NCBI RefSeq assembly: GCF_038443705.2
Contig: NZ_CP151767.2
Coordinates: 2,409,501 to 2,473,500, forward strand
Source of the DNA: Yoonia sp. SS1-5
Lineage (GTDB): Bacteria; Pseudomonadota; Alphaproteobacteria; Rhodobacterales; Rhodobacteraceae
DNA length: 64,000 nt
Reading direction: 5' to 3'
Part shown: positions 8,353-26,103 of the stretch, piece after piece
Layout of the letters: every line of letters starts with the position of its first letter
How positions within the stretch are numbered: position 1 is the stretch's first letter
Position numbers and translations under genes: made by a program
The notes under the pieces: generated by a model
Seen by the model: only the letters and a program-made list of their open reading frames with translations
Database searches by the model: none
Told to the model about the DNA's origin: nothing

Positions 8353-8415
8353 GGCAATATACCCTTCAGTTGATATGTTAAGCGGCAAGCTTTGCCGAAC
8401 GGGGACCAAACCGCA

Positions 8416-9168: not shown

Positions 9169-9175
9169 TCCGGCC

Positions 9176-9724: not shown

Positions 9725-9912
9725 GTCCCGATCTCCTGTCGTCCCCCAGCAATGGTCCTAACCGGGAAATGTGGCGGGTCGTAGGCAAGAATTGGGTGGG
9801 TGCGGGCAAGCAGCGAGATCACGCCGATCTGTCAAAATCCGACAAGCAGGCTGTCGCCACAACGGGGCCACACAGCTATGCCAACATGGGGCAGGCAAGG
9901 TAACAGATCGAC

Positions 9913-11256
9913 ATGCATGTACTGACAAGAACCGTTTGGGCGAGCATCCTGCTGGTGGCGTCAACAATCGGGCTGGCTGCCCAAGATGATGCGGAGGATC
10001 CGATCACAACCGCCTTGTCGGCGGGCGATCCGGGCAGGGCATTGGCGCTTGCCGATCAACGGCTGGCCGATGATCCCGATGATTTCGAGGCGTTGTTTCT
10101 AAAGTCCTTGGCGCTTTCCGATTTGAACCAGCCCGACGCGGCCGCGCAGGCCGCAATGCGGGCCTATGCCGCAGCGCGCAACGATGCGGAACAGTTTCAG
10201 GCAGCACGGCTTGTGGGCGGCGCCCTCTTCAGCGCAGAAGCGTATGGGCGCGCAGGCTGGTGGCTGCGCAGGGCGGCCAATCATACCCAGACGGAGGATG
10301 AACAAACCACCTTGCGCGCAGAATTTGGCCGGGTTCAGGCGGCAAATCCATTTTCCGCGCAACTTAGCTTTTCCCTAGCTCCGTCAAGCAACATCAATGG
10401 CGGCGCGGCGGATGCCTCTTTCATTCTGGGAGACTTCGAACTGCTTTTGCCCCCCGACCGCCTGGCATTGTCCGGGATTGAGTATGCCGGCGATGCGCAG
10501 CTTTCCTATCGGATCAGCCAGGGCGCGCGCTACCAGACCAGCATTGAGGCATACGCCTACGGACGGACCTACAGCCTGTCCGCCGACGCGCGCGAACAGG
10601 TGCCTGATCTGTCAGGCAGCGACTTTTCCCTCGGGCTGGCCGAGGTTGCGCTAAGCCATCGACAGTTCCTGTTCGCGGGGGCCGGGCCAACCAGCATTTC
10701 TGTCCATGAGGGCAAGGTGCGCTATGCAGGGGCGCCGCTATGGGATTACCGCAAGATATCGCTTGGTCAAACGCTGCTTGTCGGGACATCGGGGCAATTC
10801 AATCTGCTTGTGTCCGCGCAGGATCAGACCGCGCGGGACGGGCTGCAATCGGACACAATCGTCTATGACACAGCGCTTAGCTACGGGCATACATTCGGCA
10901 ACCGGGATTATATCGAAGCATCCCTGTCACGCCGACTAAACGCGGCAGAAGAAGAAGACGACACGTTCACGGATTATCGATTCAATCTGTATTACAGCCC
11001 TGCCGAACCGGTACTTGGTACCAAATGGACCTTTTCAGCGGGGCTTGGTCATGTGAATTACGACTCGTTTGACATTTCGTTCGATGGCCGGCGGGATGAT
11101 ATTGTAACCGTCGGCGGCACAGCCACTTTCGAAAACCTGTCCTATTTCGGTTTCTCACCCAGCATCAGCGTTTCCGCAACGCAAACCACATCCAACGTGT
11201 CGCAGTTTTCGACAACCCAGGTGCAGGGACGGTTCGGGATCCAATCCAGCTTCTAA
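9913..11256 (+). CDS. Slam-like outer-membrane protein (TPR + beta-barrel, DUF560 type)
   Basis: The 447-residue protein has a Sec signal peptide (to about residue 23), then about 120 residues of helical TPR-like repeats rich in Ala and Asp (ALALADQRLADDPDDFEAL). The remaining 290 residues are a beta-barrel with alternating aromatic strands ending in the terminal FGIQSSF. The joint carries SLAPSSNINGG, resembling the conserved PDSNIN-type turn of surface lipoprotein assembly modulators. Slam proteins translocate surface lipoproteins; a TbpB-like candidate client is at 941-1567. The two genes are not adjacent, so the partnership is inference. Confidence 0.7.
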   Translation: MHVLTRTVWASILLVASTIGLAAQDDAEDPITTALSAGDPGRALALADQRLADDPDDFEALFLKSLALSDLNQPDAAAQAAMRAYAAARNDAEQFQAARLVGGALFSAEAYGRAGWWLRRAANHTQTEDEQTTLRAEFGRVQAANPFSAQLSFSLAPSSNINGGAADASFILGDFELLLPPDRLALSGIEYAGDAQLSYRISQGARYQTSIEAYAYGRTYSLSADAREQVPDLSGSDFSLGLAEVALSHRQFLFAGAGPTSISVHEGKVRYAGAPLWDYRKISLGQTLLVGTSGQFNLLVSAQDQTARDGLQSDTIVYDTALSYGHTFGNRDYIEASLSRRLNAAEEEDDTFTDYRFNLYYSPAEPVLGTKWTFSAGLGHVNYDSFDISFDGRRDDIVTVGGTATFENLSYFGFSPSISVSATQTTSNVSQFSTTQVQGRFGIQSSF

Positions 11257-11295
11257 CGCGCTTGCGATGTGCGCAAATGGCGCTAAACACGGCGG

Positions 11296-12405
11296 GTGGA
11301 TCAGGCATTCGAAATATTTCTGACGGGAACGCCGGGGCTTGAAAAAGCACTTCAGGCCGAGGCGCTAGAGCGGGGGTTTACGGGTGCCGCCGTGACCCCG
11401 GGTGGTGTGACCTTCACCGGAACATGGGACGACGTGTGGCGTGCCAATCTGGTGATGCGGGGGGCCACGCGGGTGCTGGCCAGAATTGGCAGCTTCATGG
11501 CCTTCCACTTGGCTCAGCTGGACAAACGCGCGCGCAAATTCCCTTGGAAGGATGTGTTACAGCCCGATATCCCGCTGCGGGTCGAGGTCGCGACCTCACG
11601 AAAATCCAAGATCTATCACGCCGGGGCTGCAACACAGCGGATCGAAACCGCGTTAAAGGCCAATGGATACACGATCGACGCTGATGCACCGGTCGTGATC
11701 AAGGCGCGGATTGATGACAATCGGGTCACGATCAGCCTCGATACATCCGGCGAAAGCCTGCACAAACGGGGTCACAAACAGGCGGTCGGCAAGGCGCCCA
11801 TGCGTGAGACGCTGGCAAGCCTGCTGTTGCGCGAATGCGCGTATCGGGGTGATGAACCGGTCCTGGACCCGATGTGCGGGTCAGGCACGTTTGTCATCGA
11901 AGCGGCCGAGATTGCCATGGGGCTTTATCCGGGCCGGCAGCGCCATTTCGCCTTTGAGCATTTTGCCAATTTCGACGAAAGCCGCTGGAACGCGCTGCGG
12001 CAAACAGGCCCGCACAGGACACCGGCGACGCAGTTTCACGGCAGCGACCGGGACGCCGGCGCAATCCGGATGAGCATTGCGAACGCAGAGCGCGCGGGTG
12101 TCAGCGATCTGACAGCGTTCACCAATCTGGCGGCGAATGACCTGCAACGGCCCGATGGCCCGCCAGGCCTGATCATCTGCAACCCGCCTTACGGCGGACG
12201 GATCGGCAACCAAAAGATGCTGTTTGGCGTCTATGCAGGCCTCGGCGCCCGCCTTATGTCGGCGTTTCAAGGCTGGCGAGTGGGAATGGTCACAAGCGAT
12301 GCTGGGTTGGCCAAGGCGACCGGCCTGCCATTCGGCCCAAAAGGGGCGGCCATCCCGCATGGCGGTCTGAAGGTGTGGTTGTTTCAGACGGGACCGCTGC
12401 CATAG
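11296..12405 (+). CDS. THUMP-domain class I RNA methyltransferase (RlmL N-terminal type)
   Basis: The 369-residue protein starts with GTG at 11296. Residues 1-160 form an N-terminal ferredoxin-like plus THUMP region (EIFLTGTPGLEKALQAEA), followed by a Rossmann methyltransferase with LDPMCGSGTFVIEAA (SAM motif I), FHGSDRDAGAI and the N6/N2-methyltransferase motif NPPYGGRIG. This matches the N-terminal half of RlmL, which makes m2G in 23S rRNA; the RlmK half is absent, as is usual in alphaproteobacteria. The exact target nucleotide is not deducible. The gene lies 40 bases after the Slam-like gene and may be cotranscribed. Confidence 0.88.
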   Translation: MDQAFEIFLTGTPGLEKALQAEALERGFTGAAVTPGGVTFTGTWDDVWRANLVMRGATRVLARIGSFMAFHLAQLDKRARKFPWKDVLQPDIPLRVEVATSRKSKIYHAGAATQRIETALKANGYTIDADAPVVIKARIDDNRVTISLDTSGESLHKRGHKQAVGKAPMRETLASLLLRECAYRGDEPVLDPMCGSGTFVIEAAEIAMGLYPGRQRHFAFEHFANFDESRWNALRQTGPHRTPATQFHGSDRDAGAIRMSIANAERAGVSDLTAFTNLAANDLQRPDGPPGLIICNPPYGGRIGNQKMLFGVYAGLGARLMSAFQGWRVGMVTSDAGLAKATGLPFGPKGAAIPHGGLKVWLFQTGPLP

Positions 12406-12710
12406 GACTTGCTGACGATATTGGCTACTATGGTCACGCTGAATGTCTTCCTGACCAGCCGTACCTTTGAGCCGCTGGTTAATGTGTGACGTCAAACACT
12501 ATTCAATTGGTACCCTTTGTCATCAAGACGGCAACACCATGCCATGTCGCCGGCTTCATGCCATCGCAACCTTTCGCCGAACCAGTCACGCAACCGGGTT
12601 GCGTTAGAAGACAGGGTTAAGCTACTACAAGCCGCCATGATTGCTTTTGAGCACGCCACATATGCCGACGTTAAGGTGGTAGAATAGGTCAGATAGGAAA
12701 CCAGGATTCA
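12406..12710. other. Intergenic region before the Stealth gene
   Basis: About 305 bases with no recognisable gene. Composition shifts to more AT-rich than the upstream methyltransferase and continues so into the Stealth gene. No clear terminator, tRNA or attachment-site repeat is visible. It may mark the left edge of a short acquired segment. Confidence 0.5.
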
Positions 12711-13652
12711 ATGGTTGATGCAGTTATCGCGTGGGTTGATGGTTCAGACCCTGAGCATATTCGGAAGCGGGAAAAGTACAAAAGCACTCAGCATACGCAA
12801 CGTACAGACGCATACGCGGCGACGCGCTTTTCAAATAATGGCGAATTGCGCTACTGTATCAACCTCATTCGAAAAAACGCGCCTTGGATCCGTGAGATTT
12901 TCCTCATAACCGATTCACAGTGCCCAGATTGGCTGGATGCAGCACGACGGACCGAGCTTGGGGTTACAATTGTTGACCACAAAGTCATATTTCGCGGGCA
13001 CGAGGAGGTGCTGCCGACCTTCAACAGCCTCGCCCTGGAAACCGTTTTACATCGGATACCCGGACTGGGCGAAAAGTTCATATACTTTAATGATGACTTC
13101 TTCATCGTTAAGCCGGTTTTGCAGAAAGATTATTTCGATGGATCAATTCCATTGATACGGGGATTCTATTATTCCAATAATAAATTCTTTCGTGAATTGA
13201 ATCGCCTTTTCGGCCCGAAGAAGTTCAAAATGAGAGGCATGGTCGGGACACGCTTCAGGCAGGAGGACGGGGTTCCGCTGCCTCATAAAGTGAAAATATG
13301 CCATACGCCGCATCCAATCATCAAACAGGATTACGCAAATCTGATGGAAGATTGCGACCGGGTCGCACGAAACACGAAATATAGGTTTAGAGACGCGGCG
13401 CAGTTTGGCCCTGTTCCATTTTATGTGAGTACTGCATTCAGTGCTGGAAGAGCAAAAATCGTGCGACGTGACGACCTGTATTTGGATCCGGCGGACCGTG
13501 AAGACATTGATCAATCAGACATCAGGGCCCAGCTAAGTAAGAAACGCATCAGACATATGTGCGTGCAAAGCCTCGAAGAGTTTGCCGATGGGTCGCGGGC
13601 TGGTATCTATGACATCCTAGATGAGCTTGTTGCGAGTGACGTAACCCCCTGA
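12711..13652 (+). CDS. Stealth-family (capsular polysaccharide) hexose-1-phosphate transferase
   Basis: The 313-residue protein carries the Stealth conserved regions in order: CR1 VDAVIAWVDGSDP at the N-terminus; CR2 NGELRYCINLIRKNAPWIR with FLITDSQCPDWL and FIYFNDDFFIVKP; CR3 around CHTPHPIIKQDY; CR4 near the C-terminus. Family members transfer sugar-1-phosphate from a nucleotide sugar to build phosphodiester-linked capsule or glycan. No other capsule gene is adjacent. Base composition is visibly more AT-rich than neighbouring genes, with many AAA, ATA and TTT codons, which points to horizontal acquisition of a single cargo gene. Confidence 0.9.
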   Translation: MVDAVIAWVDGSDPEHIRKREKYKSTQHTQRTDAYAATRFSNNGELRYCINLIRKNAPWIREIFLITDSQCPDWLDAARRTELGVTIVDHKVIFRGHEEVLPTFNSLALETVLHRIPGLGEKFIYFNDDFFIVKPVLQKDYFDGSIPLIRGFYYSNNKFFRELNRLFGPKKFKMRGMVGTRFRQEDGVPLPHKVKICHTPHPIIKQDYANLMEDCDRVARNTKYRFRDAAQFGPVPFYVSTAFSAGRAKIVRRDDLYLDPADREDIDQSDIRAQLSKKRIRHMCVQSLEEFADGSRAGIYDILDELVASDVTP

Positions 13653-13848
13653 AACCACCCAGGCGGCTAAGCTGTCTCGCCGGTCGATAAAGGGACACGA
13701 AAGTCTGGGCGAACCCTATCAGGGGTGCCACGATCCAGCCACGCAGAACGCGTGTCGTGCGTGGTGTTGCGGCAGTTCGCGGACTTGCTGATAACAGCAA
13801 ACGGCTTCGGGCAAGGGGGCCGCATCGGTCCCCCCGCCAATGGCTCGA

Positions 13849-14049
13849 TCACTCGCCGGATGCGGCGTTCACAACTGCGCCGGTTCCCCGCACGACCAGC
13901 TTGCCTGCGCCCACGGTCCCTTTGACGGCGGTCCGGCCCACGAACAACGCGCTATCGACGCTCCGGTCGACGACTTTCTCTGCAGAGCAGGCGGACAGAA
14001 AGACAAGACCGGTCAGGATCATGATTGTGCGCATAACATTCTTTTTCAT
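13849..14049 (-). CDS. Small lipoprotein of unknown function
   Basis: The 66-residue protein has a lipoprotein signal peptide ending FLSACSAE (Cys at about residue 20) and a short mature part rich in Val, Gly and Ala (VVDRSVDSALFVGRTAVKG). It resembles the many small, poorly characterised lipoproteins of Rhodobacteraceae. The second ATG is chosen because AGGAA lies six bases before it; two codons upstream is another ATG directly abutting that site. It is divergent from the LysR gene. Confidence 0.7.
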   Translation of the reverse strand: MKKNVMRTIMILTGLVFLSACSAEKVVDRSVDSALFVGRTAVKGTVGAGKLVVRGTGAVVNAASGE

Positions 14050-14181
14050 TGTCATTTCCTTTCAGTTCAGACGCGCATCGGCGGTGTGCCGTCGCTTGAA
14101 CCGATAGATAGCGACTAGCGATCCACATGAAAAACGAATAAGAAATATATATAAACTGAGTTTCTCATATGGATAACCCCG

Positions 14182-15114
14182 ATGGACATTACATTGCTGA
14201 AAACCTTTCTGGAGGTCGCCGCAACCGGATCGTTTGTGTCAGCGTCAGAACGGCTCTACGTCACCCAATCGGCAGTATCCCTGCGCATTCAGCGGCTGGA
14301 AGATACGCTGGGAAAGCCAATGTTCACCCGGTCCAAGGCAGGTGCAGAACTGACGAATGCGGGTCGCGAATTTGAACGCTACGCGCTGTCGATCATTCGC
14401 GTCTGGGAAGAGGCCCGCCAGCAGGTCGCCATCCCCGAAGGCTTTACGCGATCCCTGACAATCGGGGCGCAATATTCGCTCTGGCCGCGTTTGGGGTTTC
14501 GCTGGATTGACGCCCTGCGACAGGACTTTCCCGATTTGAATATTCGGGCAGAGTTGGGCATGCCCGACCGCCTGACCAGGTTTCTGATCGAAGGGATCAT
14601 GCATGTCGGCCTTCTCTACATGCCCCAGCTGCGGCCGGGCCTGATGGCCGAGCAGATATTGGAGGAAGAACTGGTCATGGTTGCATCCTGGCCCAATCCG
14701 ACGATGGAGATTTCGGATCGCTATGTCTTTATCGACTGGGGGCCCGAATTCGTGGGTGCGCATGCGCTGGCCTTGCCAGAACTGACCAATCCGGGGCTGA
14801 CATTTTCGCTGGGCGCGATGGCGGCCGAATATATCGTGAACCGTCAGGCCGCCGCTTATCTGCCTGCACGCTATGTCAAAAGGTATCTGGATGCCGGGCA
14901 ATTGCATCTGGTGCCGGACGCCCCGCGCTTTCCCTACCCGGTATGGGCGGTCTGGCGCGAAGATCTCGACCCTGCCTTGCGCAATGGTGCGGCGCTGGCC
15001 CTGCAAACCGTCGCGACCGCCGCAGAAGCGGACGGTGACGCCGTCATCGAAAAGCTGCGCGACATCAGCGAAGATGGCGAAGTCGACATCCTCGGGCTTA
15101 CAGAGGATACATAA
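14182..15114 (+). CDS. LysR-family transcriptional regulator
   Basis: The 310-residue protein has an N-terminal winged helix-turn-helix (residues 1-60; GSFVSASERLYVTQSAVSLR, then RLEDTLGKPMFTRS) and a LysR substrate-binding domain of two alpha/beta lobes. Its target is unclear: the flanking genes are a divergent small lipoprotein and a downstream DUF481 barrel gene. The 126-base upstream region contains a very AT-rich block (TAAGAAATATATATAAACT, about 14139-14157), suitable for its promoter. The C-terminus is acidic. Confidence 0.92.
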   Translation: MDITLLKTFLEVAATGSFVSASERLYVTQSAVSLRIQRLEDTLGKPMFTRSKAGAELTNAGREFERYALSIIRVWEEARQQVAIPEGFTRSLTIGAQYSLWPRLGFRWIDALRQDFPDLNIRAELGMPDRLTRFLIEGIMHVGLLYMPQLRPGLMAEQILEEELVMVASWPNPTMEISDRYVFIDWGPEFVGAHALALPELTNPGLTFSLGAMAAEYIVNRQAAAYLPARYVKRYLDAGQLHLVPDAPRFPYPVWAVWREDLDPALRNGAALALQTVATAAEADGDAVIEKLRDISEDGEVDILGLTEDT

Positions 15115-15244
15115 CAATTACTCGCCTCAAGCATGATTATTTTGAATTTCCATTGTTGATACGATTTCCATAAACGTCATCGCAGCAGGAATGCTCCCGT
15201 TCTGAGAACAGGGCGGGTCACCTTCTTTGGGAGAGGAATGACCC

Positions 15245-16090
15245 ATGAAGAATGTCTTTATTATCGCTGCAATCAGCGGCTTTATGGCAACCGGCGCTGC
15301 CGCACAGACAACGACTTTCAACAACCAGGACGCATCTGCAGACGCTGTTGAAGCGCTGGAAGAAGCCATCGAAGATGATCGCGATCGCGACCTTGGTCGT
15401 TTTGGCAATGAAGGCCGCGAAATCGGCTCTTACGGCTCACTTGCGGTCCGGGGTACAAATGTTCAAAGCGGCGACGACTCCACAACCGATATCGGTTTGG
15501 GCCTGCGCTATGGTGCGTTTGACGGCGTGAACGGTTTCGACATCACGGCAAGCCTGTCATATGGCGAAACTGACAGTGAAACCACCAAAGATACATTGCT
15601 GGCCGGCATCGACTACCGCCGCGATCTGACAGCGTCGACTTTTGCCTTCGGCAAGTTGGAAGCCTTCTTTGACAACCTCGCAGAAGCCCCTGCTGATCCG
15701 ACCGAAACTGCGCCAGTCGAACAAGACGTGTTTGTTGGTGCGGGTCTGGGTTACCGGATCTTCAACGACAACATGATGCAATGGTCCGTGCAGGCAGGCC
15801 CTGGCTACCGGTCCGCAAAACTTGCCGGTGGTGATGAAATCGAGGAAGCCGCAGCATCCGTGTCGTCCAACTTCTTCCGCAGCCTGTCGGAAAGCTCTTA
15901 CGTCACAAACGACACAGACGTGATCTATTCGGAAACGCTGACAACCGTGAACAACGAACTGGCGCTGAATGTCGCAATGACACAGACGCTGTCGCTGCGC
16001 ACCAGCTACACATCAGTTTTCGATGTGGATCAGGGACCACAGGAAGGCACAAATACGCTGGGCGTATCTGTGATCTACAACTTCAACTGA
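15245..16090 (+). CDS. DUF481-type outer-membrane beta-barrel protein (YdiY-like)
   Basis: The 281-residue protein begins with a Sec signal peptide (MKNVFIIAAISGFMATGAAA), then an acidic helical stretch (about residues 30-55) and a barrel of amphipathic strands: GSYGSLAVRGTNVQSGDDS, DITASLSYGETDSETTKDTL, AGLGYRIF, ending SVIYNFN with a terminal aromatic-Asn pattern of outer-membrane proteins. This matches the salt-induced DUF481 family. Function is unknown. It is followed by a strong terminator and appears monocistronic. Confidence 0.85.
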   Translation: MKNVFIIAAISGFMATGAAAQTTTFNNQDASADAVEALEEAIEDDRDRDLGRFGNEGREIGSYGSLAVRGTNVQSGDDSTTDIGLGLRYGAFDGVNGFDITASLSYGETDSETTKDTLLAGIDYRRDLTASTFAFGKLEAFFDNLAEAPADPTETAPVEQDVFVGAGLGYRIFNDNMMQWSVQAGPGYRSAKLAGGDEIEEAAASVSSNFFRSLSESSYVTNDTDVIYSETLTTVNNELALNVAMTQTLSLRTSYTSVFDVDQGPQEGTNTLGVSVIYNFN

Positions 16091-16150
16091 TCACGGGTTT
16101 GCATTCCCAAGTGGGCCGCGCCCTCGCAGGTCCTCGTCAGATTGAAGCAA

Positions 16151-16183
16151 GGGGCGGAGAAATCCGCCCCTTCGTTTTTTTTT
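16151..16183 (+). terminator. Rho-independent terminator of the DUF481 gene
   Basis: An 8-bp GC-rich stem GGGGCGGA-gaaa-TCCGCCCC is followed by TTCG and nine T. It lies 60 bases after the stop codon. Confidence 0.93.
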
Positions 16184-16222
16184 GGGAATAGCTTGGCCGG
16201 AGCGGTCCAGTTACGCACAAGG

Positions 16223-17518
16223 TTATGATTGCGGCAGCAGAATATCCACCAGCCCCCGCACCATGATTTCGGCGCTGTCGATCATATCCTGCACGCCGAT
16301 ATATTCGTCAGGTTTATGGGCAAGTTCCAATATCCCCGGGCCGTAAGCGATACAGTTTTTCAGTTTGCCGATCCGGTCGATATGCTTTTGGTCATAGGTC
16401 CCGGGCGAGGCGACAAACTCTGCCGGTTTTCCCAGAACTTTCTCGATCTGGCTGGCGATGACCTGCACCACTGGCGCGGCGCGATCCGTCATGCTTGGCA
16501 GGACCAGATTGATCTCGCGCAGGTCGTAGTCAAACTTGTCCCGCGTCGCCTTCAACCCATCCAGCAAGGCGGTCACCTCGCCACGCACATCGGCGATGTT
16601 TTCCTCGGCCAGAAACCGGCGGTCGATCACGATCCGGCAGCTGTCGGGGACGCAATGGGCGGGCAATCCGGTATAGTCCGCCGGCTGTTCGGGCTGGCCG
16701 CCATGTACCGAATTAATATTCATCGTCGAAGACCGGGCGCCTTCAGGCACGACAGGCATATCCGTCGTCCGGGCAGCCATGGCCGGGTACAGCTTATCCT
16801 CGAACTCTGTCAGCACCGCCCCCATATGCCGCACCGCGCAATCGCCCAGAAAGGGCATGGACCCATGGGCAATTTCGCCAAATGTCTCGATCTCGGCCCA
16901 CCAGCCCCCGCGGTGACCAAGGCAAACCCGATCCTTGTTCAAAGGTTCGGGGATAATCACATGCTGCACGCGCTGGGGGCTGAAATAGCCCTGCTCGGCC
17001 AGATAGGCCACGCCGCCATAGCCACCGGATTCCTCATCCGCTGTACCCGAAATTTCGATCGCCCCTGAATAATCCGGAAATAGCGCAATAAAGGCCTCGG
17101 CGGCGATAATGGACGTGGCAAGCCCGCCCTTCATATCGCAGGCCCCGCGCCCGTAAATCTTGCCGTCCTCAAGGGCGCCGCCAAATGGGTCCTTCGTCCA
17201 GCCATTGCCGACCTCAACCACATCGGTATGGCTGTTGAAATGCACGCAAGGGCCCGGGTGGCACCCCTCACGACGGGCAATGATGTTCCAGCGCGGATAT
17301 GTGTCGCTATCCCCCGGCGTACCAACGGCGCGGATCAATTCGGTCTCAAACCCCGATTGCGTCAATCGTCGGGCCAGATATTCGCAAATCTCGCGATAGC
17401 AATCGCCCGGCGGGTTCAGCGTGGGAATGCGAATAAGGTCCTGCGTCAGCGAAATCAAATCCGCCTCGCGCGATCTGATCAGCGCTGTGATTTGCTCAAA
17501 GGCGGGTTGGTCATCCAT
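16223..17518 (-). CDS. ArgE/DapE-family zinc deacylase (M20 peptidase)
   Basis: The 431-residue protein has the M20 features: FNSHTDVVEVG (first metal His and catalytic Asp), GRGACDMKGG (bridging metal Asp), the catalytic GTADEESGG pair of Glu, and a C-terminal metal His region. The dimerisation domain lies at about residues 200-330. The annotated family covers acetylornithine deacetylase, succinyl-diaminopimelate desuccinylase and several amidohydrolases, so the substrate is uncertain. It is transcribed divergently from the protease/STAND operon, sharing a 160-base promoter region. Confidence 0.85.
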   Translation of the reverse strand: MDDQPAFEQITALIRSREADLISLTQDLIRIPTLNPPGDCYREICEYLARRLTQSGFETELIRAVGTPGDSDTYPRWNIIARREGCHPGPCVHFNSHTDVVEVGNGWTKDPFGGALEDGKIYGRGACDMKGGLATSIIAAEAFIALFPDYSGAIEISGTADEESGGYGGVAYLAEQGYFSPQRVQHVIIPEPLNKDRVCLGHRGGWWAEIETFGEIAHGSMPFLGDCAVRHMGAVLTEFEDKLYPAMAARTTDMPVVPEGARSSTMNINSVHGGQPEQPADYTGLPAHCVPDSCRIVIDRRFLAEENIADVRGEVTALLDGLKATRDKFDYDLREINLVLPSMTDRAAPVVQVIASQIEKVLGKPAEFVASPGTYDQKHIDRIGKLKNCIAYGPGILELAHKPDEYIGVQDMIDSAEIMVRGLVDILLPQS

Positions 17519-17609
17519 AATCGGAGTATTGGCGAGAATGCAGACAGGTTCAACTCACCCCCATCCATGCGGTCAGGATTCTATGACCTTGAGAAAAATC
17601 GTGGTGTCG

Positions 17610-17641
17610 CTAACGTCAAAGGCGGTGTTGACCTAACGTCA
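17610..17641. repeat. Direct repeat CTAACGTCA upstream of the protease/STAND operon
   Basis: The 9-mer CTAACGTCA occurs at 17610-17618 and 17633-17641, 23 bases (about two helical turns) apart. The second copy also forms TGAC-N5-GTCA and overlaps a TTGACC -35-like hexamer (17628-17633). It lies in the divergent promoter region 40-70 bases upstream of the S8-like gene and may bind a regulator; no regulator gene is in the operon. Confidence 0.4.
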
Positions 17642-17678
17642 GTAGGCCTGCGCGCAAGACAGTGAAGGAGTGGGGACA

Positions 17679-19322
17679 ATGTTACAGGACATTTATCAGG
17701 CTTTGACCGCCGATGAGACCATGTCGGGGGCAGAGCCGATCATTATCGAGTTGGTTTTTGAAGACCCCCAGACCCCCGATACGGTTGCTGCCGGCATCGC
17801 CGCTGCACTGCCCAACGCACCGGTGACAGTGACAAGTGCGTTCGAGACCCCGACCGATCAGTTTCTTTTCGCCGCATTTGAAGGCATCCGCGAACGCGGC
17901 CAGGAAGCACAGATTTTCGCGATGGCCCGCGCCCTGCGCACCGCCCTTGACGCGGTCGAGGCAAACCCCGTTCTGACCGACAGCACCTATGGGGCCGCTG
18001 CCGTTGACGCCGCCACGGATCGTGAAAGCTTCAAGGGGCTGTGCACGACCGAAAAGACAAATCTGCAACCCTTCGGATGGCCACACAAGATGATCCGCAC
18101 GCCGCAGGCCTGGCGCAAAAGTCGCGGTGAAGGCGCCCGCGTTGCAGTGATTGATACAGGTCATTCCACCCATCAGGAATTGAACGGCGCCATCGTGCAG
18201 ACCGGCCAGCGCAATCTGGTCGAGGGCGGCACGGACGCGCATGACAGGTTTAACGACGGGATGATGATGAACCCCGGCCACGGCACGCTGGTATGTTCGG
18301 TTGTGGGCAGCCGTGGTGACGTCGATACCCGGGGGAATGTTGCGAATAATGGTGCGGTTGTCGGGTCTGCCCCCGCCGCCGAGGTCTTGCCGATCCGGGC
18401 AATCAAATCGGTCGTCAATTTCCGGCAATCAACGATACCCGCCGCGATTGCCCATGCCATCAACCAAGGTGCAGATGTGATTGCCATGGCGTTGGGCGGG
18501 CCGACCCGCGTCGCCTCGACCGAGCGGGCGTTGCGGCAGGCGGTTGAACACGGGCTGGTCATTGTCTGTGCGGCAGGGAATTGCTGGCCCAAGGTCGTCT
18601 TTCCAGCCGCCTATGCCGCCGAAGGGCTGTGTACAGCCGTCGCGGCACTGACCCAGTCCAAACACCCTTGGGCCAAATCGGGGCAAGGTCCGCAAGTGAC
18701 CATTGCCGCCCCGGGCGAAAACGTCTGGGGGGCGTCAAAGAACAAGGCCTCCGATCCCGATAACGGTGTCCGGGCGTCACAAGGGACAACGCTGGCCACA
18801 TCCCTGACCGCCGGTGTCGCGGCCCTTTGGGTGGCCCATCACGGCGGGCGTGCCGCCTTGCAGGCCAAAGCCCGGGCCGCCGGCACGACGGTGCAGGCGA
18901 TGTTCGTGGCCAGCGTGACCCATGACATCACCAAACCCGGTGTCTGGCGTGGTTCAAAAACGTTGGGTGCCGGGATGATCGACGCAGAAAAGACACTGGC
19001 AGCCCCGCTGCCCGGACAGGCCACAGGCACAGAAGCAGTGGCCGCAAAAAACCTTGGAAAGACCGGGGTCAGCCCGACCCTGAACACGCTGATCACCCAT
19101 CTTGCAAATCATGATCCCGACGCGCTTGACGATGTCGGCCCCGAAATAGCCGATTTCGCAGCTGAAATCCTTTGGCTGTCTCACCGGGCAGGGGCCAAGG
19201 CGCGCGCGGTTGAAACATTGGGGGACGAGGCCGCAGTTGGGCCGGATCACGCCAGCGCAGACCTCGCCGCCGCATTGTCAGACAAACCACATTTGCAAGC
19301 CGTCCTGCGGATTGCTGGCTGA
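17679..19322 (+). CDS. Subtilisin-fold (S8) protein with Thr at the nucleophile position; first gene of conflict-type operon
   Basis: The 547-residue protein starts at an ATG with AAGGAG eight bases upstream; a GTG nine bases earlier is less likely. Residues 1-110 are an alpha/beta region that may act as a pro- or interaction domain. The S8 fold follows: VAVIDTG (Asp159), NPGHGTLV (His201), CAAGNCW (oxyanion Asn301) and the nucleophile segment ASQGTTLATSLTAG, in which Thr371 stands where subtilases have Ser (normal form GTSMATP). The C-terminal 90 residues are helical. There is no signal peptide, so it should act in the cytoplasm. It may be a Thr-nucleophile protease or a catalytically dead binding module. 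The next three genes follow closely on the same strand. Confidence 0.88.
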   Translation: MLQDIYQALTADETMSGAEPIIIELVFEDPQTPDTVAAGIAAALPNAPVTVTSAFETPTDQFLFAAFEGIRERGQEAQIFAMARALRTALDAVEANPVLTDSTYGAAAVDAATDRESFKGLCTTEKTNLQPFGWPHKMIRTPQAWRKSRGEGARVAVIDTGHSTHQELNGAIVQTGQRNLVEGGTDAHDRFNDGMMMNPGHGTLVCSVVGSRGDVDTRGNVANNGAVVGSAPAAEVLPIRAIKSVVNFRQSTIPAAIAHAINQGADVIAMALGGPTRVASTERALRQAVEHGLVIVCAAGNCWPKVVFPAAYAAEGLCTAVAALTQSKHPWAKSGQGPQVTIAAPGENVWGASKNKASDPDNGVRASQGTTLATSLTAGVAALWVAHHGGRAALQAKARAAGTTVQAMFVASVTHDITKPGVWRGSKTLGAGMIDAEKTLAAPLPGQATGTEAVAAKNLGKTGVSPTLNTLITHLANHDPDALDDVGPEIADFAAEILWLSHRAGAKARAVETLGDEAAVGPDHASADLAAALSDKPHLQAVLRIAG

Positions 19323-19344
19323 CGGCCATGTTTGGACGCCGGGC

Positions 19345-21069
19345 ATGACAGCGGTCCTGACAGCTGACTTGTTGCAACCACATCTGGAAGCGCATCCAGA
19401 TCTTGTTGATGATGCGCTGGCCGAACTTTACGCAGGACAGCCCGTCAAACTCAGCATGGACGCGGTCGAGGTCAACGCCGGGCTTTTGGGCCTGAACCCG
19501 GCGGACCTGCTTGTGCTCAGCCTGAACAAGCACCAGACAGCCGCGAAATTCGTGGCCTTCCTGCAGGGGCACGGTATCGCGATTTTTCCGCTGACGGGCC
19601 TGCAGGCCGGGCCTGCGGATGACACGGTTGATCATCAGAAGATGTCAGATTTTGCAGCCCGCAGTCAGGCGTTCCGCTGCCGGATTCAGGTGGGCGGCCG
19701 CGTGATGGGCAGCGGCGCGCTTGTCTCGCCGCGCATGGTCCTGACAGCCGCACATGTTATCCAGCAGGTGCTTGACGCTGCCGAAGGGGATGAACCGGCG
19801 CTGGAAATCATCGCCTCGGATACCAAGCGTTATCCGGCGCGCACGGCATTTGCCCTGCCCTGCCATCCGGACGAGCATTCCGGCGCCTTGCCCCCGGCCA
19901 CACTCGCCAAGGCGCATATGGATGTGGCCCTGTTGCGGATTGATCACCCGCTTGGGCGTCTGTATGGCCACATCAAATTGCCCGATGCACCGCATGAATG
20001 GACCGGACACAGCCGGTTTTTCCTTGTCCATTTCCCAAGCGGCGCCGATACCGGCCTGTCAATTGGCGAGGTGACCCGGCAAGGCGCTGGCGATATTCGC
20101 CTGCCGCATAACATTGCCGCCGCCGGTGGGTCGTCAGGCGGGCCGGGTTTCGGTGGGGATTTTCAATTCCTCGGCATCCATCAGGGACGTTTGGGGGATT
20201 TCCGCCGGATCGTCCCGTATAACCAGATTGCCGCGAATGATGATTTTCGGGCAACGCTGCAAAGCGATGCACCCCCCCGCTATCTCTGGTCGCTTGATGG
20301 ATCGCTGGACAGCCACCTGATCATTGGACGCGCGCTGTTCTTTGATGCGCTTTCCGCCATTGTTGAAGGGACCGCCCCACAATTGCGGGGCCTTTGGATC
20401 CGCCGCATGCGTACTGACAGCGTGACGGGCCTCAGCTTCAGCCACACCCTGCTGGATGGGTTTTTGCGCGCACATGATGTGCCGCACCGGATCGTCCGGG
20501 TGCCGATGGATCTTGGGGTGACCGATCTGGCAGATCACCTGCAACAAATCACGGATGCCGGTCCGCTGGACACCGATGAAAACGACGCAGACGCGCGCCT
20601 GCATCATCTGGTTGATCAACTCAATTCCGCCGCGGCCGCAGCGGATGAGCTTTTGTGGGTCTACATCGACAACCCACCGGCCGGTCTTTTGGCGCAGACC
20701 CAGGTGCAGCTGGAACATTTTGTACAGGCGGTTCTGGGGCAATCCCATCTGCGGATCGTGATCGCGGGCTATGAAACCGTCGGGCTGCACAACGCCCTGT
20801 CCGAAAACGTCGCCGACGCGCGACGCGCCAATCGCCCGAACCTGCTTGTCGAGCATCTGGCGGATTTTAGTCTGCGTGACATCGAACTCAGCGTGAAGGC
20901 CATGGCAGACGCACTGGATCTTGGTTGGGGGCCCGAGATGATTGCGCACACTGCCCGCTTTGCGGTGCGGAATATCCCGGCCAAGTTCGGAACGCTCTAC
21001 GATCCGAGCCACTTTCGTACTGTGTCTGACATCGTGCGCGAAGAAGCACGGCGGACCATGCCGTCATGA
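19345..21069 (+). CDS. Trypsin-like protease fused to a P-loop-less STAND-like domain
   Basis: The ATG at 19345, 22 bases after the S8 stop, gives 574 residues; the upstream frame extension overlaps the S8 gene. Residues 1-100 are a small domain of unknown kind, possibly an effector-associated adaptor. Residues 105-310 are a trypsin/V8-like protease with LTAAHV (His137), MDVALLRID (Asp193) and AAGGSSGGPG (Ser264), so all catalytic residues are present. Residues 320-574 look like an NTPase core: a Walker B-like strand LLWVYIDNPP and a sensor-like LRIVIAGYE are recognisable, yet the expected P-loop position (RRMRTDSVTGLSFSHTLL) lacks GK[ST]. This resembles the inactive STAND modules described in bacterial conflict systems. 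There is no signal peptide. The stop overlaps the next start by four bases (ATGA). Confidence 0.82.
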   Translation: MTAVLTADLLQPHLEAHPDLVDDALAELYAGQPVKLSMDAVEVNAGLLGLNPADLLVLSLNKHQTAAKFVAFLQGHGIAIFPLTGLQAGPADDTVDHQKMSDFAARSQAFRCRIQVGGRVMGSGALVSPRMVLTAAHVIQQVLDAAEGDEPALEIIASDTKRYPARTAFALPCHPDEHSGALPPATLAKAHMDVALLRIDHPLGRLYGHIKLPDAPHEWTGHSRFFLVHFPSGADTGLSIGEVTRQGAGDIRLPHNIAAAGGSSGGPGFGGDFQFLGIHQGRLGDFRRIVPYNQIAANDDFRATLQSDAPPRYLWSLDGSLDSHLIIGRALFFDALSAIVEGTAPQLRGLWIRRMRTDSVTGLSFSHTLLDGFLRAHDVPHRIVRVPMDLGVTDLADHLQQITDAGPLDTDENDADARLHHLVDQLNSAAAAADELLWVYIDNPPAGLLAQTQVQLEHFVQAVLGQSHLRIVIAGYETVGLHNALSENVADARRANRPNLLVEHLADFSLRDIELSVKAMADALDLGWGPEMIAHTARFAVRNIPAKFGTLYDPSHFRTVSDIVREEARRTMPS

Positions 21070-24000
21070 CCGATGGACCAACACCGCGCCTTCAGGAACT
21101 GGTGGAAAAGGCCCGCTATCAGGCCGCCATCCGCGAAAGCTTTGCGCCGGCCGTGCTGATACAGGACATCAGTGCCGATGCCTCTCTGGATCCGGTCATG
21201 ATGGTTGATGTGTTGTCCGCATTGCGCGCCGATTGTACCGTGGACGGGCCACGCTGGGTGATGCGCCCCGGTGTGCGCCGCAAGGTGCTGGGCGATGTTG
21301 GACCGGACCCGGCAGACAAGACGGCCGCAACACCGGTTGAGGATGCGCTGGCCGGCAAGGGGATATTCGCCCCCGCCAACCTGACACCCCTGATCACTGA
21401 TCCCGGCGACACTGATCTGCAACAGATCGTTGCCACCCTTGATCGGGCCGGGCCGACGGCGCCGGCATATGGCCTATTGGTTGGCTTGCGCGCGGCCTTG
21501 AATACCCAAAGCCAGTCACGTCGGACGGATGAGATATTGGCAAAAGGGTTCTTTGGGCGCGAGGTTGAGCTAGGCCATGCCGCAGATTGGGTCGCCACCC
21601 CCCAGCATGCACCGCCCTTGCGGACCTGGCATATCTCGGGGCTGCCGGGCATCGGCAAATCCTATTTGCTGGAAAAGGTGCTGCAAGCTGCCCGGCTTGC
21701 GGAAGAACCGCTGCTCATCCGTCTTGATTTTAACCGGATCGCCCTTGATGTGCTGAACCCCTCGACATTGTTCGAAGAGATTTCCCGCCAATTGGGCGAT
21801 GCTGTTCCTGCGGCTGCGGCCGATATGCGCAGCTTGCGGATGGAAAACGCCACCGCACGCGAAGCGGCAGGCAATATGCGCCATGTGCCGCGGACCCTGC
21901 TGCGGGGGGTGGCAGAGGCCGCAAACAACTCCGGCCGGACCGTGTTGATCATCCTTGATACACTGGAACACTTGCGCAGCCGCGGCGAGACCCATGTTGC
22001 GGGCCTGTTTGCACAACTCGATTTGTTGCTCTGCTACGGCATGCGGCGGGTCACGGTCGTCTCTGCAGGGCGGGGCGATGCGCTGGCCCCTGCGCCAGAC
22101 CGGATGCGCCATCACACGGCACTGACCGGGCTGGAGGATTGGGCCGCCGAAAAACTGCTGGATAAGCAGGGGGTCGAACGGGCGCTTTGGCCGCGTATTT
22201 TACCGTTGGCCAAGGGCAATCCGCTTTTGTTGAAACTGGCCGGTCGGGCCCTATCGCAACGCAGCGTCGCGGTCGCAGACCTTCCAGCGGATGTGTCGGG
22301 GATCGGCAGCTATCTCTATCGGGCCATGTTGGCCCGCCTGCCATCTGATCTGCGCGAGATCGCCAATCTGGGCTTGATCCTGCCGTCGATCAACAAAACC
22401 GTGCTCGAGAATGTCATTTCACCCGCCCTCGGCCTTGCCCTTGATGCGGTTGGATCGCAGGCCGCAATTGCGGCCCTGCGCGCGCATGACTGGCTGGTTG
22501 CACCAACGGCCGACGGCGGCCTGCGGCATCGGCGCGATATCCGCGCGGCCTTTCTGCAGCAGATATACGCGGATGAACCCAAGCAAACGGCAGCAATCAA
22601 CGCGGTTGCCGCTGATTGGTTTACACAACGCGATCCGGTTCTGGCGCTTTACCATCGGCTGCAATTGGTGCGGTCAGGGGGCAAGTTACCCACAATCAGC
22701 CCTGCCGAGGCCAGCAGCGTTACCCCGGCCCTGCTTGCCGATCTGCCCGCCCGTTCGCGGGATCAGGTCTTGCAGGCACAGGGCCAGCGATCCGGCTTTG
22801 CCCGCATTGGCGACGGGCCTGCCCGACCCGGCCCGGATGATGCCGCGCCACCGGCAGATGGCTGCATGGCCTGGTCCGAAAGGCTGGATCGGATCATGTT
22901 CGACCCACCAGGGTCGCCTCGCAGCCCTGATCCACGGGCGATCAAGGACCTGACGATGTCTATTGAACGCAACGATGCCGCCGAGGCTGCGTTTATCGTG
23001 TCGCGCGCGTTTGAAGCGCCCTTTCCCTTCGACAGCAATGCGGCCCTGCTGGTGATGTGCCAGCAATGGCAAGCCGGGCGCTGGGACAGCGTTGACCATC
23101 TGTACAAGCACCTGGGCTTTAAGCGGGTGTTGAACGCAGTCGTCGATGACAATCACCCGCCGGCCCGTCTGCTGTTGGAGATCGCAGCAGAATTTGATTT
23201 TGACGCGACGGTAGAGGCGCTGCAGACCCGCGATCTGGCGAATGTGGTCAACACCCTCGTACATAGTCCGCCCCCCCACGCCGCAACGCCCGGCGCATTG
23301 GATTTTGCATTTCTGGTCGCCATGGGCCTGCCTGCACTGGGGCAAGCGTCAGACCGCATTTTGGGGCCAATCGCCCATCACCTTGGCGGGGTTGCGCCAG
23401 ACGCCTCAATCCTCGCCCGGCGCCGGACCGATCTGCTGCGCAAACCGGTTGGCGTTGATCTTGTCGATAGCGGGCATATCGCGACGACCGCAGTTTTGCC
23501 CATCAACCCTTATGGGGCGTTCTTCGCCAACCGGGTCGCCGCACTGCCATTGGCAACGGATGCGATCACACGGCTTGATATCGGCGACCTGGCCACGTTT
23601 TTTGCGCCGGGGTTGACCCCGGTTCCGCCGCTGCAGGCCAGCGACTATCGCAGCGATCTTGACGCGATTGAACGGCTGGGCCTGCTGGTTGAGACGGCAA
23701 CCGGATTGTCAGGCTATCACCGGCTGCCAGACATCCCGCGTATCGCGCGGGCGGCGTATCGCTGGCGACGGACGGTATCTGGCGTTTGGTCTTATGGGCG
23801 GGCGGCACCGTCCGGTTGGGCGGATCAGTCGTCAGACCTTGATGACTATAGCGCCATGCAGCTTGATCATTTCCTGCAGCAACCCGATCCCACGCGGCTC
23901 GCGCGGCGGGCGTTGCTGTCCTGGGTGCCACCGGGTGGGGACGCGGGGCGGCTGGTCCGCCGGTTTGGCCGCCGGTATCACCGGATCAGAACTGACCATG

Positions 24001-24143
24001 ATGACGCCAAGGCACCTGCCGGGCGCGCAACCGGGCGCAAGGCGACCGAACAATTCATCGCTGCCGGCGTGCCGTTTGCGGTTGCTCTTCCACTGGCCGT
24101 ACTGGCCATCCACGCATTTGATTTGACCCAAATTATTGATTGA
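21066..24143 (+). CDS. STAND-type P-loop NTPase, central sensor/switch of the operon
   Basis: The 1025-residue protein has an N-terminal helical region (1-165), the STAND entry motif FFGREVEL, Walker A GLPGIGKS (192-199), Walker B LIILDTLEHL (Asp298), the sensor strand VTVVSAGRGD and the GNPLLLKLAGR motif that marks the helical/winged-helix part of STAND ATPases (NB-ARC/NACHT-like). The last 550 residues are mostly helical and end in a hydrophobic stretch near 1000-1018. STAND proteins are molecular switches in immunity and apoptosis-like pathways: ligand sensing triggers ATP-driven oligomerisation and effector activation. Its translation is coupled to the upstream protease-iSTAND gene by ATGA overlap. 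The sensed ligand is unknown. Confidence 0.88.
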   Translation: MTDGPTPRLQELVEKARYQAAIRESFAPAVLIQDISADASLDPVMMVDVLSALRADCTVDGPRWVMRPGVRRKVLGDVGPDPADKTAATPVEDALAGKGIFAPANLTPLITDPGDTDLQQIVATLDRAGPTAPAYGLLVGLRAALNTQSQSRRTDEILAKGFFGREVELGHAADWVATPQHAPPLRTWHISGLPGIGKSYLLEKVLQAARLAEEPLLIRLDFNRIALDVLNPSTLFEEISRQLGDAVPAAAADMRSLRMENATAREAAGNMRHVPRTLLRGVAEAANNSGRTVLIILDTLEHLRSRGETHVAGLFAQLDLLLCYGMRRVTVVSAGRGDALAPAPDRMRHHTALTGLEDWAAEKLLDKQGVERALWPRILPLAKGNPLLLKLAGRALSQRSVAVADLPADVSGIGSYLYRAMLARLPSDLREIANLGLILPSINKTVLENVISPALGLALDAVGSQAAIAALRAHDWLVAPTADGGLRHRRDIRAAFLQQIYADEPKQTAAINAVAADWFTQRDPVLALYHRLQLVRSGGKLPTISPAEASSVTPALLADLPARSRDQVLQAQGQRSGFARIGDGPARPGPDDAAPPADGCMAWSERLDRIMFDPPGSPRSPDPRAIKDLTMSIERNDAAEAAFIVSRAFEAPFPFDSNAALLVMCQQWQAGRWDSVDHLYKHLGFKRVLNAVVDDNHPPARLLLEIAAEFDFDATVEALQTRDLANVVNTLVHSPPPHAATPGALDFAFLVAMGLPALGQASDRILGPIAHHLGGVAPDASILARRRTDLLRKPVGVDLVDSGHIATTAVLPINPYGAFFANRVAALPLATDAITRLDIGDLATFFAPGLTPVPPLQASDYRSDLDAIERLGLLVETATGLSGYHRLPDIPRIARAAYRWRRTVSGVWSYGRAAPSGWADQSSDLDDYSAMQLDHFLQQPDPTRLARRALLSWVPPGGDAGRLVRRFGRRYHRIRTDHDDAKAPAGRATGRKATEQFIAAGVPFAVALPLAVLAIHAFDLTQIID

Positions 24144-24159
24144 AAAAGGGGGGCTTTTG

Positions 24160-26103
24160 ATGACTGATCACCGTTCCATTTCCCGGCTTGAAGGGCTGGC
24201 GACCACAGGCGCGCTCGACCGTGTGCAGGATGCACTGGACAAGGCCCCGCCCATACTGAACGAACTGGGGATCAGCCCCGACGCTGTAAAGACCGCGCTG
24301 GGCACCGGGTTCACCCAGTTGGAAAGCATCGGGATGCAACCGTCGCAATTAGAGGCCATTGTGCGCGCCGTTGGCCGCCCGCCCATGCTGGTCAAAAACA
24401 GCAAGGTGGAAGGGAAAATGTCGCTATCGGGTGATTTCGACGCAAATATCAGCGGCAAGATCACCGCGGTAGAGCCATTTCTTGGCTCTGTGGGTAGGGT
24501 CGAATTCGTCAACCATGACATGGGCTGGGGCGGCACCGGCTGGGTAATCGCGGATGATGGCACAACAATGCTGATGGTGACCAACCGGCATGTGGCCAAG
24601 CTTGTCGCGAAACGCACCCATCGTGGCGATGGCGTCTTTCTGTTCAGCCCCTTCGGGGCCACCCGCTATGCCGCCCGGATTGATTTCGGCGAAGAGGCCG
24701 GCGTGCCACCGGATCCTGCGCGTGTGCTGCAGGTCGAAAAGTTCACCTATCTGGCCGACGATGCCGCCGCGGATGTTGCCATCGCCGAGATCAGGCGCCC
24801 GTCCGAAGGCGTCCAGATCGGCGCGCTGCCGCTGGCCGCCTCGGATGGCGATGACGGCGAGACTGTCGCGGTTGTGGGATACCCCGCTGCCGATCCTTTC
24901 CGAAACGACCCGACAGAGATGCAGAATTATTTTCGCAACCTTTACGACGTCAAACGGTTTGCGCCCGGGTTGCTGCGTGTGCAGGATACGCTGGGCATTC
25001 TGGGGCATGATTGCACCACATTGGGTGGCAATTCCGGGTCGCCCGTGATCAGTCTTGATCAGGGCGGTGTCGTGGGGCTGCATTTTGCTGGCACTTACGG
25101 GGTTGGCAACAGCGCGGTGCGCGTCAGCACCCTGAAAGGGTTGCTGGATCAGACCGTGACCACAGTGCCTGCTGCCGCGGTGCAGGCCCCCGCATTCCAG
25201 GACCCGACACATGATGCAAAATATTTCCGGGGTCGTGACGGGTATGATCCGGGCTTTTTGCGGGTTGTGGATGTGCCGCTGCCAACGTTGCCCGCGCATC
25301 TGGATCTGGCCCGCCCCTCTGACGGAACCGATGACCGCCCGCACGAGCTGCGCTATCAGCATTTCGGCGTTCTTTACAGTCTGGCGCAGAAAAGCCCCGC
25401 CATTGCCGCGCTGAATATCGACGGGGCCAAGACCCGACGCATCAAACGCAGCAACTCGCGCTGGTGGAAAGATCTGCGCATCCCGGCGGACCGGCAATTG
25501 GGGCGCGATGACTATAGCGATCCCGAAATTGACAGGGGTCATATGGTGCGCCGGGCCGCCACGAACTGGGGGCGCGACCTGCGCATCGCCAAGCGGGCCA
25601 ACCGCGACACGTTCCATTATACCGTGGCCAGTCCGCAGCATATGGGATTGAACCGCAGCCGGTCATCCTGGCTGGGTCTGGAAGACTACATCATGGAAAA
25701 TACGCGCACCTTTGGTTTCCGCGCCAATGTGTTTACCGGCCCGATCTTCACCGATGACGATCCGCCACTGGGTGACAGCGGGGCCACAATCCCGCTGAAC
25801 TACTTCAAGGTTGTCACCATGCTGGCCGAGGACGAATGGGACACGCTGCGCCTGCATGCAACGGCCTATGTCCTGTCGCAGGGGCAGTTGATCCAGCAGA
25901 TGCTGCTTGAGGAAGGGCTCGCAGCCGCGGTTGAGGGCTTTACCTTTGGGGAATACCGGACCTTTCAGGTACGGATCAGCGATCTGGAAGGGATGACCGG
26001 CTATGATTTCGGCAATCTGCGCGACGCTGACCCGCTGGCGCACGAGGATGAGGCTACCCTGCGCGTGCAGGCCATCGACGCATTGGCACAAATTCGGATG
26101 TAG
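24160..26103 (+). CDS. Trypsin-like protease fused to NucA-type DNA/RNA non-specific endonuclease
   Basis: The ATG at 24160 follows a strong AAAAAGGGGGG site and gives 647 residues. After a helical N-terminus (1-75) comes a V8/trypsin-like protease with VTNRHVA (His144), DVAIAEI (Asp205) and LGGNSGSPV (Ser292). The C-terminal half (about 385-647) is a beta-beta-alpha metal nuclease with the DRGH motif (Asp458-His461) and the metal Asn in MGLNRSRSSWLGLEDY (Asn498). All catalytic residues of both domains are present. There is no signal peptide, unlike secreted NucA nucleases, so the nuclease could reach the cell's own or invading nucleic acid. It is the last gene of the operon, 16 bases after the STAND gene, and is the likely effector. 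Confidence 0.9.
   Translation: MTDHRSISRLEGLATTGALDRVQDALDKAPPILNELGISPDAVKTALGTGFTQLESIGMQPSQLEAIVRAVGRPPMLVKNSKVEGKMSLSGDFDANISGKITAVEPFLGSVGRVEFVNHDMGWGGTGWVIADDGTTMLMVTNRHVAKLVAKRTHRGDGVFLFSPFGATRYAARIDFGEEAGVPPDPARVLQVEKFTYLADDAAADVAIAEIRRPSEGVQIGALPLAASDGDDGETVAVVGYPAADPFRNDPTEMQNYFRNLYDVKRFAPGLLRVQDTLGILGHDCTTLGGNSGSPVISLDQGGVVGLHFAGTYGVGNSAVRVSTLKGLLDQTVTTVPAAAVQAPAFQDPTHDAKYFRGRDGYDPGFLRVVDVPLPTLPAHLDLARPSDGTDDRPHELRYQHFGVLYSLAQKSPAIAALNIDGAKTRRIKRSNSRWWKDLRIPADRQLGRDDYSDPEIDRGHMVRRAATNWGRDLRIAKRANRDTFHYTVASPQHMGLNRSRSSWLGLEDYIMENTRTFGFRANVFTGPIFTDDDPPLGDSGATIPLNYFKVVTMLAEDEWDTLRLHATAYVLSQGQLIQQMLLEEGLAAAVEGFTFGEYRTFQVRISDLEGMTGYDFGNLRDADPLAHEDEATLRVQAIDALAQIRM

Follow-up and report, generated by a model that had tools for sequence, protein, structure and literature searches.

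A 64,000-nucleotide stretch of the Yoonia sp. SS1-5 genome (Rhodobacteraceae; contig NZ_CP151767.2, positions 2,409,501 to 2,473,500; hereafter the window) carries an operon of four genes, which encode an S8-fold protein (gene 1), a trypsin-type protease (gene 2), a STAND NTPase (gene 3), and a trypsin domain fused to an Endonuclease_NS (EndoNS) domain (gene 4). We consider it likely that this operon encodes a variant of the CARD-NLR or LypABC type of regulated cell death, extended by a zymogen-like subtilase that has threonine in place of the catalytic serine. The layout of genes 2 to 4 is known already, from LypABC and from the predicted System 3; what is new is gene 1, with its predicted propeptide-like domain and fixed Thr, located ahead of the trio.

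The first line of evidence is the correspondence with LypABC of Caulobacter, an inflammasome-type switch of CARD-NLR-type architecture that lyses cells for the release of gene transfer agents (GTAs) (Banks et al. 2026, PMC13236601). Genes 2, 3, and 4 have the order and layout of LypA, LypB, and LypC. Published LypA comprises a helical bundle (1–80), a trypsin domain with S262, and a Walker-less ATPase domain (324–592), to which correspond, by position, helices 7–75, S264, and the alpha/beta domain 330–571 of gene 2. Likewise, K198/D298 of gene 3 stand against K230/D335 of LypB, and S292, H461, and N498 of gene 4 against S296, H471, and N505 of LypC. As in CARD-NLR systems, the ATPase has both Walker A and Walker B (13/13 sequences; Pfam AAA_16), and the third protein of the trio combines a trypsin with an endonuclease. 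Moreover, LypABC and the trio described here both lack a gasdermin gene, are rare and patchy, and have neighbors that are not notably defense genes; CARD-NLR systems in general are reported from about 0.35% of sequenced bacterial genomes (Banks et al. 2026). The LypABC-like reading rests on this shared order, layout, and set of residue positions, and also on the occurrence of the trio without a subtilase in Paraburkholderia. The two systems differ in that here a fourth, pro-subtilase-like gene with Thr precedes the trio and the hosts are mainly Rhodobacterales. A control genome of Caulobacter vibrioides gave one Endonuclease_NS match, consistent with LypC, while the genome of the window gave two, namely gene 4 and one at C2:3.79 Mb.

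The operon had been singled out by an original prediction made from the DNA letters, which described four tightly packed genes for a subtilisin-fold protein, a trypsin-like protease with a P-loop-less STAND-like domain, a STAND NTPase, and a trypsin-NucA fusion. The coordinates and four intact open reading frames (ORFs) agree with it, the junctions being 22, -4, and 16 bases, and so do the Pfam families: Peptidase_S8 in gene 1 (E = 4e-25), Trypsin_2 in gene 2 (1e-10), AAA_16 in gene 3 (2e-11), and Trypsin_2 (1e-15) plus Endonuclease_NS (3e-39) in gene 4. The prediction also held the system to be undescribed; this part is not supported, since genes 2–4 correspond in layout to LypABC and the trypsin-NucA-S8-STAND theme had been predicted as System 3 (Kaur et al. 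2020, PMC7159879). Judged mostly from the listings of our literature searches, a separate S8 gene with a LypABC-like trio was not found described.

The second line of evidence is the conservation of the set. Fifteen distinct loci of the four-gene type, obtained from a scan of GTDB contigs, matches within the family, and a Paracoccus plasmid, were compared (the window, L018 = L023, L019, L020, L021, L022, L024–L031, and L076). To the extent of the contigs, gene order is kept in all 15, which argues that the arrangement is not due to chance and supports the expectation that the four genes co-occur in other genomes. All four genes are visible in 12 of the 15; a contig end cuts gene 4 in L021 and L031, and the contigs of L022, L025, and L027 end before the full set is reached. 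In the 14 homologous loci measured, and with starts chosen by us, the junctions range from -16 to +39 bases. Distance matrices computed for each of the four genes are congruent (Mantel r 0.81–0.90, 0/2000 permutations each; 11 of the 12 loci showing all four genes, with L076 left out), and this congruence, like the constant order, speaks for the LypABC-like reading.

Catalytic residues are likewise conserved in genes 2 to 4, as counted where readable and with L076 left out: the trypsin triad is invariant in gene 2 (14/14) and gene 4 (11/11), as are the Walker A Lys and Walker B Asp of gene 3 (13/13) and the nuclease His and Asn of gene 4 (10/10), the nuclease part being missing in L021. By a crude hydropathy measure, which is not a signal-peptide predictor, none of 53 sequences has an N-terminal 19-residue stretch above 1.6, in line with the predicted absence of signal peptides.

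The distribution is patchy, and the earlier view of a conflict-type operon with a STAND switch is supported. Gene 3 is present in 3 of the 295 family genomes searched, that of the window counted. The GTDB scan, which detects only loci bearing one of two subtilase peptide patterns, returned 19 loci: 13 at 43–77% identity and 6 remote S8 matches at 25–36%. Twelve of the 13 bear genus names that we take to be Rhodobacterales, and one is labeled Alphaproteobacteria only. At the class level, the STAND profile of gene 3 matched 10 of 385 genomes, strongly in the window and G574 only; gene 2 matched 28 of 385, the matches outside the window being partial and mostly to the trypsin domain (the best of them, in G574, covers 114–350).

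The third line of evidence concerns gene 1. Its Asp, His, and oxyanion Asn are unchanged in 15/15 sequences, while the Ser position is occupied by Thr in 16/16 (15 in one alignment, plus L076 added). The original prediction had counted three proteases; with Thr at this position the third is unproven. Gene 1 has the domain and the fold of S8 subtilases without their Asp-His-Ser triad, and whether it is active is unproven. Thr is also found in L032, a sixteenth locus in which the subtilase stands alone; a type IIG restriction-modification gene lies about 2.5 kb away, and a search for remnants of genes 2–4 beside this orphan gave only a single 22-residue match (E = 0.008). For a control, 30 S8 loci of relatives were taken, 8 of which had an alignable row. 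Thr was seen in two of the 8, both members (L114, the window itself, and L113, probably the same genome as L020), and Ser in L102 and L115; the four remaining rows have no residue at that column, and in two of these (L108 and L122) pattern reading finds a GTS motif. Among five further S8 proteins added to the control, the member L076 has Thr, and Ser is seen in L080, L035, and L036; the fifth, L033, is misaligned in the control alignment, and its motif reads GTS. In a FastTree tree including six outgroup-type or added sequences, the S8 domain of the Polaromonas plasmid locus L080, with its Ser, adjoins the Thr group, which fits a single Ser-to-Thr change. Assignment of gene 1 to the type VII mycosins was rejected (best NCBIfam match 130 bits, far under the cut-off of 279).

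The predicted structure of gene 1 (pLDDT 70.8, pTM 0.82) has a confident beta-alpha-beta-beta-alpha-beta domain at residues 21–98; the S8 domain comes next, and the C-terminal region is helical. This order of elements is that of subtilisin propeptides. Among the 50 structural matches listed, pro-subtilisin E aligns over 455 and 474 columns, Pro-S324A over 481, and fervidolysin over 494, compared with about 260–343 for mature or intracellular subtilisins. From the longer alignment with pro-subtilisins and the N-terminal domain of the model, we infer that gene 1 keeps a propeptide-like domain, and the pro-subtilase part of the favored explanation derives from the same alignments.

Might gene 1 be a genuine Thr-nucleophile protease, an essential activator or executor and not a pseudoenzyme? 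The invariance of the other catalytic residues while the Ser position is always Thr, the orphan included, speaks for it. Against it, a Ser-to-Thr change usually cripples serine proteases, and a literature search on Thr-nucleophile subtilases gave no paper matching all terms; we regard this alternative as rather unlikely. In our opinion improbable to about the same degree is a scenario in which a cell-death switch lineage recruited a cytoplasmic pro-subtilase, kept its inhibitory propeptide, and fixed Thr as the nucleophile of a slow or self-locked zymogen. Within an inflammasome-like cascade with three protease domains, this zymogen would be a proteolytic timer or safety catch, which the trypsin of gene 2 or that of gene 4 would open.

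In the explanation that we favor, a LypABC-like switch with an added subtilase, the STAND protein of gene 3 would sense a trigger (phage, or possibly GTA activity), bind ATP, and oligomerize. Its N-terminal domain would then recruit the helical bundle of gene 2 and so activate the gene 2 trypsin, and the trypsins of gene 2 and/or gene 4 would cleave targets, leading to cell death. Gene 1 would be an added module, a cytoplasmic pro-subtilase with Thr that could serve as zymogen, as decoy or inhibitor, or as a slow protease in the cascade. The interaction of genes 2 and 3, the need for both trypsins and the ATPase, and cell lysis are proposed by analogy with LypABC, in which LypA binds through its CARD to the N-terminal domain of LypB and lysis needs the protease residues of LypA and LypC and the ATPase residues of LypB (Banks et al. 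2026). The trigger and the role of gene 1 are conjecture.

The same study bears on how such a cascade may end. Kaur et al. (2020) proposed for NucA-trypsin systems a proteolytic cascade in which the nuclease is released to destroy DNA, and the original prediction had the same end for the present operon. The retention of the nuclease His and Asn of gene 4 wherever readable agrees with it, and Hachiman and AVAST are reported to contain a pro-nuclease, of a different fold, that is gated by a protease (Tuck et al. 2025, PMC12799240). In Caulobacter, however, lysis requires the LypC serine and not the nuclease residues, which are dispensable, and one Caulobacter LypC lacks the nuclease domain altogether (Banks et al. 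2026); because of this dispensability, the gene 4 nuclease is a doubtful killer by analogy, and the Thr of the subtilase adds to the doubt about the predicted cascade. We therefore hold a nuclease-terminated cascade to be somewhat improbable.

A GTA-lysis module, which would sense GTA production and lyse the cell to release particles instead of defending against phage, is suggested by the role of LypABC in C. crescentus (Banks et al. 2026) and by the presence in the window's genome, at C2:863196, of GTA_TIM, a gene belonging to GTA clusters. That gene is about 1.6 Mb distant from gene 3, gene 3 is present in only three of the family genomes searched, the four-gene set occurs also on a plasmid, and Rhodobacter capsulatus uses a holin-endolysin according to Banks et al.; we consider this role unlikely.

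Several observations weigh against the classification as LypABC-like with a pro-subtilase. Membership rests on architecture and published residue positions, not on an alignment or a tree. Profile comparison detected no homology between the C-terminal domain of gene 2 and the gene 3 NTPase, and CARD is absent among the 50 Foldseek matches listed for gene 2, all of which are trypsin-type or HtrA-type proteases. The agreement of the distance matrices could be explained by shared vertical descent. The catalytic loops of the gene 1 model are poor (pLDDT <50), and its structural matches have root-mean-square deviations of 6.5–12 Å, with aligned ranges not given. Finally, the named neighbors are mostly genes of ordinary metabolism and transport.

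The predicted structure of gene 2 (pLDDT 83.5, pTM 0.77) has five helices ahead of the trypsin domain. In our own reading of the DSSP string, the model of its domain 330–571 shows alternating strands and helices plus terminal helices in an order like that of ASCE NTPases. This is the domain labeled "P-loop-less STAND-like" in the original prediction, for which profile comparison with gene 3 showed no homology. A padloc match of gene 2 to LmuA (9e-5) was set aside as weak or generic, as were matches over the trypsin part of gene 4 to "nacht" (3e-11) and RT-Protease (5e-6). In gene 3, Pfam detected no fused effector domain and, at E 0.1, no repeat match, TPR-like repeats after the ATPase being a feature of CARD-NLR systems. 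Near the gene 3 C-terminus, a hydrophobic stretch (aa 997–1015, window 24054–24110; mean 2.41) exceeds the maximum of 12 other gene 3 homologues and could touch the membrane. In gene 4, the motif LEAIV....RPP (aa 64–80, window 24349–24399), directly ahead of the trypsin domain, may be a zymogen or docking element; LEA(I/L)V....RP is also present in Polaromonas, Paraburkholderia, and RADAR-linked proteins.

Related systems share parts of this design. System 3 of Kaur et al. (2020), predicted mostly in alphaproteobacteria and mentioned again in a follow-up (PMC8195603), has the trypsin and NucA core in one protein, as here, with several peptidases, sometimes S8, and STAND in some cases. There, however, S8 (an optional feature) shares a polypeptide with NucA, and the STAND component is part of a fusion with trypsin and a Death-like domain, whereas here S8, gene 2, and the STAND protein are encoded separately. 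The Lysobacter CARD-NLR gasdermin systems (Wein et al. 2025, via Banks et al. 2026) combine a CARD-type trypsin with an NLR-like ATPase, as reported for LypA/LypB; here a trypsin-EndoNS protein takes the place of gasdermin, and a subtilase is added. Hachiman and AVAST likewise link a trypsin-like protease to a nuclease in immunity, the nuclease there being of the metallo-beta-lactamase type and encoded by a separate gene, unlike the fused EndoNS of gene 4 (Tuck et al. 2025). Avs, to which the original prediction had compared the operon, proved the wrong parallel: at E 0.01, Avs models matched none of the four proteins and gene 3 lacked any padloc match, and a fused effector is not seen in gene 3 by Pfam. 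DefenseFinder possibly contains a CARD-NLR subtype that includes a subtilase, in which case the four-gene layout may be catalogued already.

Table 1. Positions in the window of the operon genes and the adjoining upstream features
Feature	Coordinates	Strand	Description
M20 peptidase gene	16223-17518	minus	divergent from the operon
Intergenic gap, 160 bases	17519..17678	.	common to the operon and the divergent M20 peptidase gene; possible promoter region
Gene 1, S8-fold protein	17679..19322	+	547 aa counted from ATG; propeptide-like beta-alpha-beta-beta-alpha-beta domain aa 21-98, S8 domain, helical C-terminal region aa 467-543; catalytic positions Asp159, His201, Asn301; Thr371 where Ser expected
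Gene 2, LypA-like	19345..21069	+	574 aa from ATG; helices aa 7-75, where LypA has its CARD; trypsin domain (His137, Asp193, Ser264); alpha/beta domain aa 330-571
Gene 3, LypB-like STAND NTPase	21066..24143	+	1025 aa; Lys198 in Walker A and Asp298 in Walker B; GNP motif recognized by eye; extended region at the C-terminus
Gene 4, LypC-like	24160..26103	+	647 aa from ATG; trypsin (His144, Asp205, Ser292) fused to Endonuclease_NS (His461, Asn498)

An in-frame GTG is located at 17670, ahead of gene 1. A promoter scan of the gap upstream of it found no sigma-70 consensus promoter; terminator-like sites are more numerous than in shuffled sequences and are located within genes. The guanine-cytosine content of the four genes, overall and at third positions, lies inside the range of ten compared neighboring genes.

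The operon is found at different sites and on plasmids. In G294, of the same genus, it is absent from the window's site: both flanking genes are there, with one gene, hydantoinase-like by eye, between them. Common sites were seen for L020 with the window and for L028 with L029; other pairs of loci have at most one flank gene family in common. Among 72,556 plasmid records, 6 matched gene 3 and 87 matched gene 4, most of the latter partially. The Paracoccus plasmid (L076) carries the four-gene set, and a Paraburkholderia plasmid, typed as conjugative, the three-gene set without subtilase. Polaromonas plasmid pPNAP01 (L080, 46–8311) has a rearranged set: an ORF that the gene table omits encodes a fusion of S8 and trypsin domains, and beside it lie a LypA-like gene, a STAND NTPase gene, and a free EndoNS; this neighborhood also favors the reading of the operon as a LypABC variant with a subtilase. 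The LypA-like protein of L080 contains a stretch resembling Walker A by eye, and L080 is a possible intermediate toward the degenerate NTPase of gene 2.

A phage-borne system was rejected: viral contig scans with genes 3 and 1 gave no matches, gene 4 gave five weak ones (24–40%), and no member was recovered from these contigs. Gene 1 matched 37 phage records, at 26–33% among the ten matches listed. A defense island was also rejected, since Pfam places six of ten neighbors in transport, metabolism, or chromate-regulator families and one among recombinases, three having no family; in the flanks of the loci, seven padloc models had one member each at 1e-10 (70/131 flank ORFs, without a control set).

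Further related or similar loci were observed. L075 (G574, 3528–13344) is a five-gene relative consisting of trypsin-EndoNS, a small protein, trypsin, a LypA-like protein, and a STAND NTPase. On Sinorhizobium plasmid pCpl (L081, 8896–19740), a long EndoNS-annotated protein is 47% identical to gene 4 over 91% of it, with CHAT-domain and S8 genes further on. Bradyrhizobium plasmid pB41S5 (L085, 9040–13704) has three protease genes, one of the trypsin-EndoNS type and two for trypsin/serine proteases, in the vicinity of DpdA/DpdB and queuosine-type genes and of a gene resembling phospholipase D. In the window's own genome, L009 (C2:3784000-3802000; 6705–16834, minus strand) contains a RADAR-like pair (RdrB model 4e-26; RdrA model 3e-5; adenosine deaminase domain), adjoined by a 976-aa lipase-trypsin-EndoNS protein that shares 36% identity with gene 4 and by another trypsin protein; here a trypsin-nuclease module seems to be attached to a second defense core. 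L010 (1779–5914), possibly another conflict operon of this genome, comprises an ABC ATPase with a mad3-model match, a family-less, membrane-bound-looking protein, and an EAD11-trypsin protein.

These results suggest that systems of LypABC-like architecture form a mobile family, present on Rhodobacterales chromosomes and plasmids and on betaproteobacterial plasmids, and that in one branch of it a zymogen-like subtilase, its nucleophile changed, was acquired. In natural sets the S8 domain is separate, absent, or fused, and by comparison of these the mechanism leading from signal to death in such switches can be tested.

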